DNA of 64,000 nt, from positions 1-64,000 of the forward strand of contig NZ_JANAVO010000001.1 in NCBI RefSeq assembly GCF_024213555.1, given 5' to 3'. The notes beneath the pieces were generated by a model. The model was not told the DNA's origin. It saw only the letters and a list, made by a program, of their open reading frames with translations, and made no database searches. The first letter of the stretch is position 1. Each line of letters opens with the position of its first letter. The stretch comes from Allokutzneria sp. A3M-2-11 16. Lineage in GTDB: Bacteria; Actinomycetota; Actinomycetes; Mycobacteriales; Pseudonocardiaceae. The translations under genes were made by a program, and so were the position numbers. Of the stretch, positions 34,563 through 40,486 are shown piece by piece.

Positions 34563-34586
34563 CCCTCACATTGGTCCAGGCCAATC

Positions 34587-34647
34587 CCGTTTCGTACTCA
34601 TAGCCGGAGATGGAGCGCTCCCAAACCCGGCTATGAGTACGAAACGG
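34587..34647. repeat. Family C inverted repeat, copy 2
   Basis: A perfect 21-bp inverted repeat pairs 34587-34607 with 34627-34647, starting CCGTTTCGTACTCATAGCC. A central GGAGCGCTCC palindrome lies at 34612-34621. The right arm supplies the last codons and stop (TAG) of the acyltransferase gene. It lies between convergent genes. Confidence 0.92.
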
Positions 34648-35527
34648 AAGAGGGGGTGAGGTCGCGCGGGGTGATGAGGCGCTTCTCGGGGATGAAGGGC
34701 CTCGGGTCGGCGGCGGGGCAGGCCGCGGGGCTCGGCGTGGCTGAGCGGTCGATGGCGGCCTTGGCGGAGCGGCACAGTGCGGCGCGCGAGCGGTAGCGGG
34801 ACGGGTCGAGGACCGGGAGCGCGCGCACGTGCACTTCGAGTCCGCGGATCGCGGCGATGGCGCGCACGTTGTCCAGCAAGGTCTGCCCGCTGAGGAAAGC
34901 GGCGGAGGAGGTGGCGCGACCGCCGCGCAGGCGGTGCTCGATCAGCGTGGGGCGGACGGGGACACCGGCGCGCAGTGCGGCTTCGAAGACCGCGGGGGTG
35001 AAGGCACCGCCGGGAGAGCTGCACCGGCGGACGCCCTCGGGGAAGGCGCCGACGGGCAAGCCCGTGCGCAGGGCAGAGGTGATCTCGGCGATGGTGTCCG
35101 GCAGCGCGCGGGGCCGCGAGCGATCCAGGAAGATCGTCCCGCCGCCGCTGAGCAGCCTGCCGAGGAAACCGGTGGCCGTCCGCGCATCGGCAACCAGGTG
35201 AATCGGTTGCTGCACAAGCAAAGCGGCCCCGTCCAGCCAGGAGAGGTGGTTCGCCACCAACAGCGCGGCGCCACCTCGGGGTCCGGTGTGCACGACGCGG
35301 ACGCCGAGCGCGCGCAGCAGCAACCCCGACAGCCGCCGGAGCTCCCGGACGCGGCGGCGCGGGCTGAACAGGGGCAGGAGGACGGCCAACGGCACCGCGA
35401 GCAGGAGCACGGAGAACACCGATCCGAGGCGGACAACCCGCCGCGCCAAGGGAACGGCCGGTGTCTCGCTCGCGTCCGGCAAGCAGTCGGAGGGGCAGTG
35501 GGCTGGGTATCCGGGTGAGGTCTTCAC
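34631..35527 (-). CDS. PlsC-type 1-acylglycerol-3-phosphate acyltransferase-like protein
   Basis: This encodes 298 residues from a GTG at 35527. A membrane segment (LGSVFSVLLLAVPLAVLLPL) is followed by acyltransferase motifs: NHLSWLDG (the H-x4-D motif), GTIFLDRSRP and AFPEGVRR. It may make phosphatidic acid or acylate another glycolipid. It lies 111 bases downstream of the GT87 gene on the same strand, so it could be the last gene of the isonitrile-glycosyltransferase operon. The final five residues (SVSYS) and stop are encoded by a family C repeat arm, suggesting the original C-terminus was altered by the element. Confidence 0.82.
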   Translation of the reverse strand: MKTSPGYPAHCPSDCLPDASETPAVPLARRVVRLGSVFSVLLLAVPLAVLLPLFSPRRRVRELRRLSGLLLRALGVRVVHTGPRGGAALLVANHLSWLDGAALLVQQPIHLVADARTATGFLGRLLSGGGTIFLDRSRPRALPDTIAEITSALRTGLPVGAFPEGVRRCSSPGGAFTPAVFEAALRAGVPVRPTLIEHRLRGGRATSSAAFLSGQTLLDNVRAIAAIRGLEVHVRALPVLDPSRYRSRAALCRSAKAAIDRSATPSPAACPAADPRPFIPEKRLITPRDLTPSSVSYS

Positions 35528-35638
35528 TGGTCTGCATCCACAATCGAGGTCGACGGCAATGCAGGTGTGGATCTTGCACCAGTGCGTCCGGGTCGACGCG
35601 AGGGGGTCCCGTAGTCGTTTGCTGCCAAGGGAAACCGG

Positions 35639-36880
35639 CTACGGCTCGACTACCTGCAACGGCGCACCGCCGCGAGTGCCGAGACGACGCCAGACCCAGA
35701 GCAGGGTTGCGCCGAAGAGGAACACGTACACGTTGGTGTAGACGTTGCCGAGGCCGCCCCACTCCGGGGCGCCGATCACACCGAGCGCGGGGATGTCCAT
35801 GCGGTGCCCCGTGAAGAAATGCATGGGCCACGAGAACGTCACCACGGCGAGGAGACTCAGCACTGCGATGTGCACTCGGCTGCTCCGCCACCAGTGCGCG
35901 GCGACGATCGCGAGCGGCACGAACCACACCCAGTGATGGCTCCACGAGATCGGCGACACCACGGCCCCGGTCATTCCGACGAGGGTGAAGGCCAGCAGCA
36001 TCTCCCCACGCCGCTGTGCGAGCACCGCCAGGGAGAACCCGGCCAGCACGGCGAGCAGCGCGAAGCCCAGCCACAGCACCGTGGGCGGCTCGTCCATTGT
36101 GAACAGTCGAGCGAGCAGGCCGTTGAGCGACTGGTTCATCGGGCTCGCGACTTCGCCGACGCGCTCGGCTTGGAGGAAGGTGCCGCTCCAGTACCGCAGC
36201 GCGTTGCCCGGCGTCACCGCGAGGCTGATCGCTACCGTGGCCAGGAATGTGCCGACCGCGACAAGAGCCGCCTTGTAGCGCCGCGTGACCAGGAAGTAGA
36301 TGACGAAGATGGCGGGCGTGATCTTGATACCGGCGGCGAGCCCGACCGCCAGACCGAGCCACACATCCGTGCGCTTGTGCAGCCCGAACAACAGGATCAC
36401 TAGCAGCACCAGGTTGATCTGACCGAGGTGCATCGTCCACGAAACCGGCTCCACCCAGAACAGCAACGCGGTCAGCCCCAGGGTGAGGCGACGCAGATCC
36501 CGGTCCGGCGCATAGCCCATGATCCGCAACGACAGCCAGACCGCGCAGGCCAGGAGCGCGGTGTTCACGGGGAACACCAACAGCTTCCACAGCCACAGCG
36601 GGCCGAGCACCATCGGCGCGAACAGCAACGTGGAGAACGGCGGGTAGGTGTAGGAGAACATCCCACCGGCGATCTTGGCTTCGTAGAGCGGCGAGCCTTC
36701 CACCAGCGCCCGCGCTCCGGCCTCGTAGACGGTGAGGTCGAGGAAGTCGGACATGATCACAAAGCCGGTGACGGCCCAGTGCAGCACGGAAATGGCGATG
36801 AACGCGGGGACCGTCACCACCGCGATCCACACCGCGTTGCGGGACACCCACGCCAACGGCTTCGGCGGGACAGGGCTCAT
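35639..36880 (-). CDS. Polytopic GT87-type (DUF2029) mannosyltransferase-like protein
   Basis: This encodes 413 residues from the ATG at 36880 (CGGAGG upstream), overlapping the stop of the GT39 gene (ATGA). About ten membrane helices are present. The family pattern is clear: SDFLDLTVYEAGARALVEGS and SYTYPPFSTLLFAPMVLGPL near the start, then HLGQINLVLLVILLFGLHKR and WLGLAVGLAAGIKITPAIFV. GT87 enzymes such as PimE transfer a sugar from a polyprenyl-phosphate donor outside the membrane. The acceptor here is unknown; the operon position suggests the isonitrile product or a lipid linked to it. Confidence 0.85.
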   Translation of the reverse strand: MSPVPPKPLAWVSRNAVWIAVVTVPAFIAISVLHWAVTGFVIMSDFLDLTVYEAGARALVEGSPLYEAKIAGGMFSYTYPPFSTLLFAPMVLGPLWLWKLLVFPVNTALLACAVWLSLRIMGYAPDRDLRRLTLGLTALLFWVEPVSWTMHLGQINLVLLVILLFGLHKRTDVWLGLAVGLAAGIKITPAIFVIYFLVTRRYKAALVAVGTFLATVAISLAVTPGNALRYWSGTFLQAERVGEVASPMNQSLNGLLARLFTMDEPPTVLWLGFALLAVLAGFSLAVLAQRRGEMLLAFTLVGMTGAVVSPISWSHHWVWFVPLAIVAAHWWRSSRVHIAVLSLLAVVTFSWPMHFFTGHRMDIPALGVIGAPEWGGLGNVYTNVYVFLFGATLLWVWRRLGTRGGAPLQVVEP

Positions 36881-38670
36881 CTTGCGCCTCCGGGGCGGCA
36901 ATCGAACAACAGCTCCGGGTGTCCCGGCGGCCCTGAGGGACCGGACGCGCCCTGGTAGTCGGCGACGGGCACGGGAGCGCAGTTCTTCGCCACCCACTCC
37001 TGCCGCTCGATCGACGTGCCTCCGCCCATGCCGCCGTGGAACCCACCGATGAGCACGTGCCGGACCTGCCCGGACCGCACCAGCTCCTGAAGCTCCACAA
37101 TGGACGGAACGGCGGCCGCACCGGTGAAGCCGCCCATGGGCAGCACGCTGTACCCGGCACGCAGGTAGGGCGCGGCGGTGTTCGCGGTTGGAACGGCGAA
37201 CATGTAGCGCTCGCGCGTGTGGTTCTGCTTCACATACTGCAGCACGCCGACGTTCGGAGTGACCATGTTCATGTCCCCCATCCCCGGCGGGAAAGGCATG
37301 TCCGGGGGCATTCCGTGCATGGCGGCCATTCCCGAGTCAGACAGAGCACTTCCTTGCCCCGCAACAGGGTTCAATGACGTCAAACCGTCGAGGACCTTCC
37401 CGGAAGCCATCACGGTGAACACCGCGGGGCCCGCCAACACCGCTGCGACTGCCACCGCGGGCAACCGCGCCACGAGCGCGACAGCCACACCCACCGCGAT
37501 CACGATCCCGAGCCACACCAAGTCTTCTCGGGTGCACAACACCACCGCCCAGGCACCCGTTCCGACGATCCCCACCCACGTGTTGAGGTGAAACGCGTAG
37601 GCGGCCAACGCCGCGACGGCCGGAGCCAAAGCCGCGGTGTAGTAGGGGTGAATGCCCGGCGCGGCGGAGAAAAGAACCGCGTGCGTCAGCAGCCACGTTC
37701 CCCACATGATCACACCCGCACGCTCAAAGTCCTTGCGCGGGAAGGACTTGCGGACAACCAGACCGAGAATGACGGCGATCAGGGCCAACGGGAGGAGCCA
37801 GCTGATCTGAACGCCGATCTCGGAGTTGAACAGGCGGAACGGGCCTGCCGCACCGCCGAAGTCCGCGAGGAAGCTGCTCACCTGGTCCGTCGCGGCGGTG
37901 CCGTGCGAGAAACGACCGAAGCCATTGTACAGCAACGCCATCTCCCACACGGAGTTGTTGGTGCTGCCGTCGACGTACGGACGATCCGCGGCCGGGGTCA
38001 ACGCAACCGCTATGAGCCACAAGGAACTGACCGCGAGCGCGAGCACCCCCGCGACCGCAGTCCGGGCGAGGCGGGACACCAAGCCTCCTGGAGCGGCGAC
38101 CAGGTAAGCGATTCCCAGTGCGGGCAGGACCAGGAACGCCTGCGTCATCTTCATCTGGAAGCCGACGCCGATCCACACCGCCGCGATCAGCAGCTGCGGC
38201 CAGCGCCCGCCCTTGATCGCCTTCGACGTGGCCAATGCCGCGCAAACCATGCACAGCACCAGGAACGTGTCGGGGATGTTCACCCGCGCCAGCACCACGG
38301 TGATCGGCGTCAAGGCGAACACGGCTGCGGCGATGAGCCCCGCACGCGTGCCGATCCAGAGCCGCACAGCCGAGTACAGCACCGGAACCGTTGCCGCTGC
38401 CGCAAGGGCTTGGGGCAGCAGGACGGCCCAGGCGTGGAAGCCGAACACGCGCACCGACAACGCCTGCATCCACAGCGCGCCCGGAACCTTGTCCACCGAG
38501 ATCGTCCCGGCCGGATCGAAGGCACCGTAGAAGAACGCGTGCCAGCTCTCGCTCATCGAGCGAACACCGACCGTGTAGTAGTAATGCGGTTCGACTCGGC
38601 CGAAAGCCCAGAAGGCCAACAGGAAAGTCGCAGCGGTGAGGCCCAATACGGCCAGGGAACGAGTTTTCAC
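36877..38670 (-). CDS. Polytopic GT39-type glycosyltransferase (ArnT/PMT-like)
   Basis: This encodes 597 residues from a GTG at 38670, overlapping the isnB stop by 4 bases. GT-C fold: VEPHYYYTVGVRSMSESWHA and FDPAGTISVDKVPGALWMQA in the first loop, then VLARVNIPDTFLVLCMVCAA and about a dozen helices. The extracytoplasmic C-terminal part has an unusual methionine-rich stretch (GMAAMHGMPPDMPFPPGMGD, then MNMV). It ends in a soluble domain (YMFAVPTANTAAPYLRAGYS, VLIGGFHGGMGGG). Enzymes of this family use polyprenyl-phosphate sugars. Tight coupling to isnB implies a role in the same pathway. Third-position GC looks lower than in neighbours (not computed). Confidence 0.87.
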   Translation of the reverse strand: MKTRSLAVLGLTAATFLLAFWAFGRVEPHYYYTVGVRSMSESWHAFFYGAFDPAGTISVDKVPGALWMQALSVRVFGFHAWAVLLPQALAAAATVPVLYSAVRLWIGTRAGLIAAAVFALTPITVVLARVNIPDTFLVLCMVCAALATSKAIKGGRWPQLLIAAVWIGVGFQMKMTQAFLVLPALGIAYLVAAPGGLVSRLARTAVAGVLALAVSSLWLIAVALTPAADRPYVDGSTNNSVWEMALLYNGFGRFSHGTAATDQVSSFLADFGGAAGPFRLFNSEIGVQISWLLPLALIAVILGLVVRKSFPRKDFERAGVIMWGTWLLTHAVLFSAAPGIHPYYTAALAPAVAALAAYAFHLNTWVGIVGTGAWAVVLCTREDLVWLGIVIAVGVAVALVARLPAVAVAAVLAGPAVFTVMASGKVLDGLTSLNPVAGQGSALSDSGMAAMHGMPPDMPFPPGMGDMNMVTPNVGVLQYVKQNHTRERYMFAVPTANTAAPYLRAGYSVLPMGGFTGAAAVPSIVELQELVRSGQVRHVLIGGFHGGMGGGTSIERQEWVAKNCAPVPVADYQGASGPSGPPGHPELLFDCRPGGAR

Positions 38671-39497
38671 AGCGCGGGGTTCCTGAAGGGCGGGTCGCCG
38701 AGCACGTGCACGCGGCGCAGGTGGCGGGGCGCGCGGTGGGTGAAAGCCTCACGACCGTGCAACAGCGTGTAGTTGTCGGTGATCACCAGATCGCCGTCGA
38801 CCCAGTTGTGCGCGTAGTAGTGGCGCGGGTCGTAGAGCGCCTTCTGGAGTTCTTCAAGCAGCGCATGAACATCCTCGCTGGCCACGCCGTCGAAGCTGTG
38901 GCTCGGCCGGTTGAGGAACGCCGAATCGTCGGCGAGCGGCGGCTCGTTGTACCGCATCGTCGGCACGCCCGTGGTCGGATGCGGTACCACCAAAGGAGAA
39001 ACCGCCTTCCCTCCGTAGTGGACCTTGTTCTGGATGCGGTAGGTCACGGTGATGTCGCGCCACCGCTCGACCGTCGCGGGGTCGGCGGATGCGAGCACAG
39101 CGCTGGAGTCGCTGAACGTGGTGCGGCCACCGTTGCCCGCGCCTGGCGCGCTGACGCACTGGAAGACCTGGAACTCCGGGATCATCGGCTTGTACATGCC
39201 GTCCCAGTGCAGCGGGACGTAGCTGTGGTCGAAGATGTGGTCGGTCGGCGCGTCGGTCTCGACCAGTTCGAGCACGGCGCCGAAGGGCCACATCATGACC
39301 TCGCCGAGGGTGCCGCACCACGCGGTCAGGTCCTCGGCGTTGGTGAAGTCGCGGAACCCGCGCAACACGAGGATGTGGTGCTCCCGGGCGAGCGCGAGCA
39401 AGGCTTCCGGGGCGAGCGTCGTGGGGTTCGTTCCTGGCGCGCCCGCCTGGACGAGCACGCCGAAGGAACCGATTTTCTGTTGCTGTGCAAGGGACAT
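38667..39497 (-). CDS. isnB: Fe(II)/2-oxoglutarate oxygenase of the isonitrile pathway (IsnB/PvcB-like)
   Basis: This encodes 276 residues from the ATG at 39497 with AAGGAAACC upstream. It is a TauD/TfdA-family oxygenase: HHILVLRGFRDFTNAEDLTA, the iron ligands H97 and D99 in VPLHWDG, distal H247 in YTLLHGREAF, and the 2-oxoglutarate arginine region HRAPRHLRRVHV. It starts 11 bases after the isonitrile synthase gene. In PvcB/IsnB systems this enzyme converts the isonitrile of tyrosine or tryptophan to a vinyl isonitrile by decarboxylation and desaturation. The pairing makes the call firm; the exact reaction is inferred. Confidence 0.87.
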   Translation of the reverse strand: MSLAQQQKIGSFGVLVQAGAPGTNPTTLAPEALLALAREHHILVLRGFRDFTNAEDLTAWCGTLGEVMMWPFGAVLELVETDAPTDHIFDHSYVPLHWDGMYKPMIPEFQVFQCVSAPGAGNGGRTTFSDSSAVLASADPATVERWRDITVTYRIQNKVHYGGKAVSPLVVPHPTTGVPTMRYNEPPLADDSAFLNRPSHSFDGVASEDVHALLEELQKALYDPRHYYAHNWVDGDLVITDNYTLLHGREAFTHRAPRHLRRVHVLGDPPFRNPAL

Positions 39498-39508
39498 GAC
39501 GGTTTCCT

Positions 39509-40486
39509 TCAGCCCGTGAGGCGAGACAGGACGTAGTGGCTGGGCCGGCCACCCCGCCGGACGAGGGTGGCGCCGAGCCGTTCGGCGTCGGCCCGCTTGT
39601 GCAGCTCCGGGCGCCCGTCGACCATGACGGTGACGCCGTGCCAGGGGGTGAGCCAGCTGTCCGCCGTCTCCATCAGCAGGATGCCGAGCTTCGCGGAACC
39701 GCACGCCTGCGGGTGAATGGACAGGCGAACGGCGTCGGTGAACCGCTCGGCGAGCAGCGCGCCCCACGCCCGGCTGCGCTGGATGACCCCGTACGCGCGG
39801 CGCCGGGCTTCGCGCAGCGCCGCCGCCCTGCTGCCCGCGTAGTCGGGGCCGAGCTGGTCCTCGAACAGGAACCGCGTCATCCCCCGGTAGATGCTCAGCG
39901 CGTGCCCGCCCGCCTTGACCTCGGCGCGCACCGACTCCACCGGCTCCGCGTAGTGGGTCACCAGGTGCTGACGCATCGCGTCGTGATCGTCGCCCAGGTG
40001 CACGTCGTCGAGGTCGAAGACGTCCAGCCGCTCCGCGCCGATCCGGTCGATCATCGCGAGCAGTTCGCGGCGGTAAGCCGTGACGTCGGAGTCCGGAACG
40101 CCGATCAGGTCACCGAATACGCGCCCGTCGGAACAGATCACGAAGCGCGCGCCGGGCGAGTAGACGCGCTCGATCCGATCGCAGACCGACTGGAGGAACT
40201 CCAGCGCCACGCGTTCGGCCATGTCCGGTAAATGGCTGATCGTCTTCGCGCGGTTCGGCGACTTCGCCGGAAAGGCGGGCAGCACAAGCTGGATTTCCCG
40301 CCCCGCCGCCATCGCGGCCTCGATCTTGCGCAGGTGCGGCGCGGCACAGGCGGCGCAGGGCTCGGGGTGCTCCCCCGGCAGCCGTCGTTGGTAGGCCATG
40401 AGCAGGCGGGCAACGGCGTCGGCCGGGTTGTCGCCGCCGGGTTCCACGGTCGAGACGACCTGGTCCGACAGCACGGAGTTGACCAT
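39509..40486 (-). CDS. isnA: L-tyrosine/L-tryptophan isonitrile synthase (IsnA/PvcA family)
   Basis: This encodes 325 residues from the ATG at 40486, chosen for its GAGGGGGATT ribosome site; the frame is open to 40543. The length is that of PvcA (about 328). Family motifs: LVLPAFPAKSPNRAKT (residues 68-82), FVICSDGRVFGDLIGVPDSD (115-134), FDLDDVHLGDDHDAMR, then SIYRGMTRFLFEDQ and IHPQACGSAKLGILL. Such enzymes condense the amino-acid amine with a carbon of ribulose 5-phosphate to form an isonitrile. It leads an operon with isnB and two glycosyltransferases. Confidence 0.9.
   Translation of the reverse strand: MVNSVLSDQVVSTVEPGGDNPADAVARLLMAYQRRLPGEHPEPCAACAAPHLRKIEAAMAAGREIQLVLPAFPAKSPNRAKTISHLPDMAERVALEFLQSVCDRIERVYSPGARFVICSDGRVFGDLIGVPDSDVTAYRRELLAMIDRIGAERLDVFDLDDVHLGDDHDAMRQHLVTHYAEPVESVRAEVKAGGHALSIYRGMTRFLFEDQLGPDYAGSRAAALREARRRAYGVIQRSRAWGALLAERFTDAVRLSIHPQACGSAKLGILLMETADSWLTPWHGVTVMVDGRPELHKRADAERLGATLVRRGGRPSHYVLSRLTG

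Follow-up and report, generated by a model that had tools for sequence, protein, structure and literature searches.

Known isonitrile pathways and membrane glycosyltransferases

The rhabduscin cluster of Xenorhabdus nematophila consists of isnA, isnB and a glycosyltransferase (GT) gene; isnA lies next to isnB, and the vinyl isonitrile phenol formed is then glycosylated to yield rhabduscin, an isocyanovinylphenol glycoside reported to inhibit insect phenoloxidase at low nanomolar concentrations (PMC6386379). Byelyankacin, also an isocyanovinylphenol glycoside, is reported to inhibit tyrosinase at 2.1 nM (PMC10420840). Here we describe an operon in a 64,000-nucleotide stretch of DNA of the soil actinomycete Allokutzneria sp. 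A3M-2-11 16 (hereafter the window), in which isnA and isnB are likewise neighbors but are followed by two genes for membrane GTs of the GT-C type, here called GT39 and GT87 after their families, of which the first overlaps isnB; the rhabduscin cluster has one GT gene. GTs of the rhabduscin kind are soluble and nucleotide-sugar-dependent, and by this the rhabduscin GT would differ in kind from the two GTs here. The paerucumarin operon (pvcABCD) encodes PvcA and PvcB, which are homologous to IsnA and IsnB of the window. That operon also has pvcC and pvcD, both of which are absent here, where the GT genes follow, and PvcB possesses L and C at two marker sites at which IsnB of the window possesses K and N.

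GT-C enzymes are also found inside actinobacterial natural-product clusters. Polyprenyl-phosphomannose-dependent tailoring by membrane GT-C enzymes outside the membrane is described for Ram29, MppH/I, Dbv20, Tcp15 and BifP, where it has been shown by expression for Ram29 and is putative for several of the others (PMC4635501, PMC13285481). The likeness drawn between them and GT39 and GT87 is one of mechanism only, and the aglycones of the Ram29 kind are peptides, whereas a small phenol is predicted here. In the open-access literature searched, with subscription papers largely outside the search, isonitrile genes coupled to polyprenyl-dependent GTs were not found. An earlier reading of the window from its letters (the sequence-only reading) knew of no described pathway of such composition; the coupling to isonitrile synthesis is indeed new, but membrane tailoring with polyprenyl-linked sugars was already known or proposed. 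We propose, with a probability of about 0.55, that the operon is a conserved system for the biosynthesis of a glycosylated, tyrosine-derived vinyl isonitrile, i.e., a rhabduscin-like glycoside formed by a Ram29-like route.

Organization and conservation of the operon

The five genes isnA, isnB, GT39, GT87 and plsC are consecutive on the minus strand from 40486 to 34631, as read from the sequence with start codons chosen by us, and Pfam assigns all five proteins above cut-off. The features are:

40486-39509, minus strand: isnA, 325 amino acids, ATG start; isonitrile synthase of the DIT1_PvcA family
39497-38667, minus strand: isnB, 276 amino acids; Fe/2-oxoglutarate desaturase, assigned to the PIsnB type from its marker residues
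38670-36877, minus strand: GT39 (PMT_2 and YkcB_C), 597 amino acids; integral-membrane GT-C glycosyltransferase
36880-35639, minus strand: GT87, PimE-like, 413 amino acids; integral-membrane GT-C glycosyltransferase
35527-34631, minus strand: plsC, PlsC-type acyltransferase, 298 amino acids; restricted in this position to Allokutzneria and of uncertain role
35519-35579, minus strand: 61-base block reaching from within the GT87-plsC gap over the plsC start; one changed column among three Allokutzneria genomes

The spacing is 11 bases between isnA and isnB and 111 bases between GT87 and plsC, while isnB/GT39 and GT39/GT87 each overlap by 4 bases (GTGA and ATGA, respectively). The gene order, gaps and both overlaps given by the sequence-only reading proved exact when the sequence was read again; its term "fused" suits the adjacent and overlapping genes, not the proteins, which are separate.

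The search for isnA homologues covered 249 family genomes, 394 class genomes and a collection of named genomes, and at most 8 isnA, 5 GT39, 7 GT87 and 9 PlsC candidates were scored per genome in the family scans. In the class scan, 14 of the 394 genomes matched at E 1e-40, the window's genome included, and 13 of the 15 loci found in the other genomes were retrieved. Neighborhoods were read for 67 different isnA loci scoring more than 150 bits, including that of the window (42 from the family, 13 from the class and 12 from the named genomes), over stretches of 5.8 to 20.9 kb, a few of which stop at a contig end; GT genes lying far from isnA or beyond such an end would have escaped notice. A homologue of isnB was found within the stretch read at 38 of these 67 loci. 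Seven of the 38, from seven genomes of three genera, possess isnA-isnB-GT39-GT87 in the same order and on the same strand: the window, L040 and L041 in Allokutzneria (genus g1), L045, L046 and L054 in g17 and L049 in g20. By genus, GT39 of this group is found in 3 of 3, 3 of 5 and 1 of 7 genomes of g1, g17 and g20, respectively. The overlap of isnB with GT39 is present in all seven loci, and 13 of the 14 isnB/GT39 and GT39/GT87 junctions overlap by 4 bases, the exception being isnB/GT39 of L049 with 1 base. Two further loci were not counted as GT-linked: L037, where a GT39 (281 bits) lies about 4 kb from isnA, and L053, where a GT87 (149 bits) lies about 6.5 kb from isnB. The linkage of isnAB to the GT39-GT87 pair is thus conserved in three genera. 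The sequence-only reading had allowed that relatives might never carry the GT genes, which did not hold in the isnA neighborhoods, as seven carry them; of the GT39-GT87-PlsC partnership that it had suggested looking for, the GT pair recurs across the genera, and PlsC is confined to Allokutzneria.

The cluster copies also stand out in the family-wide scans. The best seven GT39 matches in the 249 genomes are all cluster copies, after which the score falls from 452 to 415 bits (the 452 bits being a partial match of a GT39 whose whole frame scores 637), and the next three matches (415-411 bits) have no isnA nearby. The best seven GT87 matches are likewise the cluster copies, with a fall from 407 to 348 bits. 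A class-wide GT39 scan of 335 genomes matched the window's genome alone; three candidates were scored per genome, which makes this weak evidence of absence outside the family. The chromosomal site of the operon varies: in g1 it lies between gltD and a ThiS gene, and in g17 and g20 the neighbor of isnA is a divergently oriented LysR gene, about 52% identical between the two genera. No LysR homologue was found among the called genes of the window. Because the flanks differ between g1 and g17/g20, the block has changed place.

Other isnA loci showed different layouts. L044 (8535-12662) contains isnA and two isnB-like genes followed by a gene for an HpaB-type aromatic hydroxylase, which is another layout of an isonitrile cluster, while isnAB is found with an FAD monooxygenase-like gene in L036 and with a tryptophan-halogenase-like gene in L037. 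The isnA-isnB pairs of L058, L060, L064, L065 and L067 are from metagenome-assembled genomes labelled Bdellovibrionaceae, Bdellovibrionales and Halobacteriovoraceae, with no GT genes in the stretch read.

Block inheritance and block loss

Phylogenetic analyses placed the IsnB proteins of the seven GT-linked loci in one clade (support 96/94; tree of 41 sequences), the seven cluster GT39 copies in one clade (100/100; 27 sequences, 20 of them background) and the seven cluster GT87 copies in one group (85/84; against 11 background sequences), with the background sequences of the GT39 and GT87 trees picked by us from the match lists. From these trees, the inherited unit looks like isnB-GT39-GT87.

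The same block has been lost in two g17 genomes. In both, the deletion starts directly behind isnA; in L043 it runs into GT87, of which a stub is left, and in L047 it reaches through almost the whole of GT87, with about 105 bases of GT87 left in between. The nearest intact relatives are L046 and L045 for L043 and L047, respectively. Because the end points differ and each genome is sister to a different intact genome, the two losses are probably independent. Within Allokutzneria, the pairwise ratios of nonsynonymous to synonymous substitution rates (dN/dS) of the five genes range from 0.14 to 0.33.

IsnA and IsnB

IsnA matches DIT1_PvcA with 251.9 bits (Pfam cut-off 26.4) and the structure of PvcA (3e59) with an E of 4.5e-91. 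IsnB matches TauD of Pfam with 157.5 bits, and its matches among solved structures are PvcB (3eat; E 1.3e-91, 310 bits) and 7tcl (E 4.9e-81, 276 bits); it keeps the Fe ligands H, D and H and the carboxylate-binding Arg. Enzymes that form vinyl isonitriles are reported to be distinguished from those that form isocyanoacrylates by K/R at the K107 site and N/H at the N188 site (Kim et al., PMC9467999). IsnB of the window possesses K and N at these sites, and all seven GT-linked IsnB copies possess K/R and N. The predicted aglycone is 4-(2-isocyanovinyl)phenol, which has one free hydroxyl and is also the aglycone of rhabduscin and byelyankacin.

In addition, the window's genome contains five DIT1_PvcA matches above cut-off (L001-L005, at C9:74188, C11:821779, C11:39578, C33:72324 and C41:132658), of which one is partial (28.1 bits); 14 control genomes contain none.

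GT39 and GT87

GT39 is assigned to PMT_2 (98.6 bits) and YkcB_C (78.1 bits) of Pfam. Because a sequence search of solved structures returned a chance match only, GT39 was modelled with AlphaFold (predicted local distance difference test, pLDDT, 75.6; predicted template modelling score, pTM, 0.80). The best Foldseek match of the model in the PDB is ArnT (5f15; E 1.5e-9, template modelling scores 0.59/0.64), which has a GT-C fold. GT39 also keeps the acidic residues D52, D60 and D134, which are present in at least 19 of the 20 background GT39 proteins. The PMT_2 and YkcB_C architecture is shared with the YkcB/YkcC pairs, for which the function in B. subtilis is given as unknown (PMC8035078), but the partner gene here is GT87 and not GT2/GtrA. 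A GT2/GtrA gene adjoins four of the five YkcB-type GT39 relatives examined (L037 and L095-L097; L098 is without). Because GT39 of the operon adjoins GT87 instead, its neighborhood suggests that it draws on the general polyprenyl-phosphate-sugar pool of the cell.

GT87 matches Pfam GT87 with 154.6 bits and PimE (9dm5) with an E of 8.3e-34, and keeps nine of the ten PimE positions checked: D55, D58, Y62, Y92, Q163, K195, W319, H321 and H322. Seven of these, D58, Y62, Y92, Q163, K195, W319 and H322, are reported to comprise the catalytic base of PimE and six further residues with a loss effect or a phosphate contact (PMC12041525), and all nine are present in each of the seven cluster GT87 copies. 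PimE is the mycobacterial mannosyltransferase of phosphatidylinositol mannosides (PIMs) and acts on PIM4 (PMC12041525). The genomic context differs here, and GT87 scores 210.7 of the 413 bits of the PRK13375 PimE equivalog cut-off; judged by its sequence, GT87 is PimE-like, not PimE.

About 10 transmembrane-like segments were found in each GT by a crude hydropathy scan. Because both belong to membrane GT-C families that use polyprenyl-phosphate sugars, glycosylation at the outer face of the membrane would be the natural reading. The families, the PimE-like residues of GT87 and the ArnT-like model of GT39 agree with the view of the sequence-only reading that these enzymes are membrane-embedded, polyprenyl-phosphate-dependent and active outside; the isonitrile is the presumed acceptor.

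PlsC and the 61-base block

PlsC matches the Acyltransferase family of Pfam with 62.1 bits and contains the HX4D motif as HLSWLD at residue 94 and FPEGVR at 162. It scores 53.4 of the 102.95 bits of the TIGR00530 cut-off for 1-acylglycerol-3-phosphate (AGP) acyltransferase, a score at which no substrate is assigned. plsC lies beside the operon in all three Allokutzneria genomes, with dN/dS of 0.22-0.26 among them, and not in the other two genera; the next nearest match in the 249 family genomes is 41% identical (172 bits), which makes it unlikely that plsC is part of an ancestral flank. By this distribution, PlsC is an Allokutzneria-specific addition of uncertain role, so its place as a general member of the operon, assumed by the sequence-only reading, is not borne out.

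The 61-base block is the longest run of the operon with at most one change among the three Allokutzneria genomes (coding runs reach 53 bases), and is found in 3 of the 249 family genomes, all of them Allokutzneria. By eye, it contains two short inverted repeats of which only one can form at a time, ATCCACA/TGTGGAT and CTGCAT/ATGCAG. Its predicted fold does not stand out (z -1.48, with 16 of 200 shuffles folding as well), and the outer stem, checked by eye, is not kept in the relatives. The block had no match in Rfam and no second significant copy in the genome (other matches had E of 0.1 or more), which set aside an Rfam RNA and a repeated element, respectively. Read-through from GT87 into plsC, which are in frame in the window (111 bases, or 37 codons), was rejected, as one relative has a TAA and the gap is of unequal length by eye. 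The block over the start of plsC may provide for separate control of this gene.

Proposed pathway

In the proposed pathway, IsnA would convert L-tyrosine to tyrosine isonitrile, and IsnB, as an enzyme of the PIsnB type, would desaturate and decarboxylate it to (E)-4-(2-isocyanovinyl)phenol. The phenol, which is small and neutral, would reach the outer leaflet, presumably with no need of a dedicated exporter. There, GT39 and GT87 would transfer sugars from polyprenyl-phosphate donors of the general pool, putatively in two steps in which the phenol and next the sugar placed on it serve as acceptors, with mannose the likeliest sugar for a PimE-like GT87.

Several observations weigh against this pathway. 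IsnA scores 322 of the 600 bits of the NCBIfam equivalog cut-off for L-tyrosine isonitrile synthase; it is therefore filed in the PvcA/IsnA family, with tyrosine as a presumed substrate. Single-site changes at the IsnB markers are reported to have failed to switch selectivity (PMC9467999), and K/R with N is also found at 10 of the 31 other loci with isnA and isnB and thus is not exclusive to the cluster. In GT87, D160 of PimE, whose loss is reported to largely reduce activity (PMC12041525), is replaced by H in the window and by H or Y across the seven cluster copies, and none of the 18 GT87 proteins examined keeps it. The seven PimE residues are kept in the 11 background GT87 proteins as well, so they are evidence of a working donor site and say little on the acceptor. 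The operon encodes neither a donor synthase nor an exporter, unlike the four YkcB-type relatives with their GT2/GtrA neighbor. A single clade of the IsnA proteins of the seven clusters and the two deleted loci was rejected by the approximately unbiased (AU) test (p 0.0018), for which 39 of the 67 sequences were kept, thinned after an earlier tree had been seen, and the two block-deleted loci were counted within the group; the Allokutzneria IsnA proteins stand apart from the others. One inherited unit that includes isnA is rejected by this test, and because the IsnA copies are not one clade, isnA looks to have been exchanged at least once in some lineage. Finally, isnA is intact to its stop in L043 (9032-9973) and L047 (8392-9333) despite the loss of the rest, which indicates that isnA can function in the absence of the GTs and may have its own use.

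Alternative explanations

The alternative that survives best, which we hold as a tentative possibility, is that GT39 and GT87 glycosylate an acceptor of the envelope, such as a lipid, a wall polymer or a protein, and not the isonitrile, and that the operon only co-expresses both activities, e.g., under one stress or metal signal. Their bacterial relatives act on envelope molecules, as PimE does, or have an unknown acceptor, as in the case of YkcB, and both the missing pathway-specific donor synthase and exporter and the survival of isnA without GTs in two genomes fit this explanation. It is opposed by the groups that the cluster GT39 and GT87 form in step with one IsnB clade, by the invariable isnB/GT39 overlap and the joint loss, twice, of the GTs and isnB, and by the position of the family's seven best GT39 matches, all beside isnB, when the next three are not near isnA.

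A second explanation is an addition that overlaps the odds of the proposed pathway: PlsC would be a true pathway enzyme and the product a membrane-held, lipid-anchored isonitrile glycoside. The constant position of plsC in Allokutzneria, its distance from its nearest relatives and its dN/dS, which is similar to that of its neighbors, speak for this explanation, which we nonetheless regard as rather unlikely: plsC does not adjoin the operon in g17 or g20, and the 61-base block may mean control of its own. PlsC enzymes use acyl-coenzyme A or acyl-acyl carrier protein at the inner leaflet, while the active sites of GT-C enzymes face outside, so acylation after glycosylation is hard to picture. 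The lipid conjugate offered by the sequence-only reading, if made by PlsC after glycosylation, is accordingly unsupported. Unlikely too, and a little more doubtful, is a surface-anchored isonitrile glycolipid, in which the phenol would be glycosylated twice outside, tied to a lipid with the aid of PlsC in Allokutzneria and displayed on the envelope as a perimeter that binds metal or inhibits enzymes.

That IsnB yields another product, either an isocyanoacrylate or an indole vinyl isonitrile from tryptophan, which the operon then tailors, appears improbable. The low score of IsnA in the tyrosine model and the top score of PvcB among the solved structures matched by IsnB would fit such a product, but both marker positions are of the PIsnB type in all seven loci, and an indole vinyl isonitrile would presumably offer no hydroxyl for O-glycosylation. 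That an isonitrile pair and housekeeping membrane GTs lie together by chance can hardly be correct: GT39 is common (178 of the 249 family genomes at E 1e-60 or better), but the same order, the overlaps and the separate groups of the cluster copies in three genera at different chromosomal sites contradict it.

Flanking genes and other features

The window forms the beginning of contig 11 in an 8.8 Mb Allokutzneria genome. Upstream of the operon are a glutamate-synthase-like gltD (42208-40703) and, before it, gltB, both named by eye; downstream and convergent are genes for a ThiS-family protein and a Sortilin/BNR-like protein. Between the convergent plsC and ThiS-family genes, a long inverted repeat with arms of about 21 bases by eye (34583-34651) also codes for the last residues of PlsC and is perhaps a two-way terminator; two weak Rfam mir-4433 matches on it were taken as chance. 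The GC content at third codon positions of the five genes is 0.84-0.91, compared with a mean of 0.941 (standard deviation 0.032) for 41 neighbors, a composition that is no more than suggestive of horizontal transfer.

Implications

The operon would join isonitrile synthesis with extracytoplasmic polyprenyl-phosphate-dependent glycosylation. The natural block-deletion strains offer a ready-made comparison with their intact sisters. A surface isonitrile glycolipid, if true, would mark the first use of polyprenyl-phosphate-sugar chemistry in an isonitrile pathway that we know of. If the proposed pathway is correct, the operon would provide a compact GT-C set acting on a tiny aglycone, which would be useful for studies of how GT-C enzymes choose their acceptors, and its products would constitute a new class of actinobacterial isonitrile glycosides.

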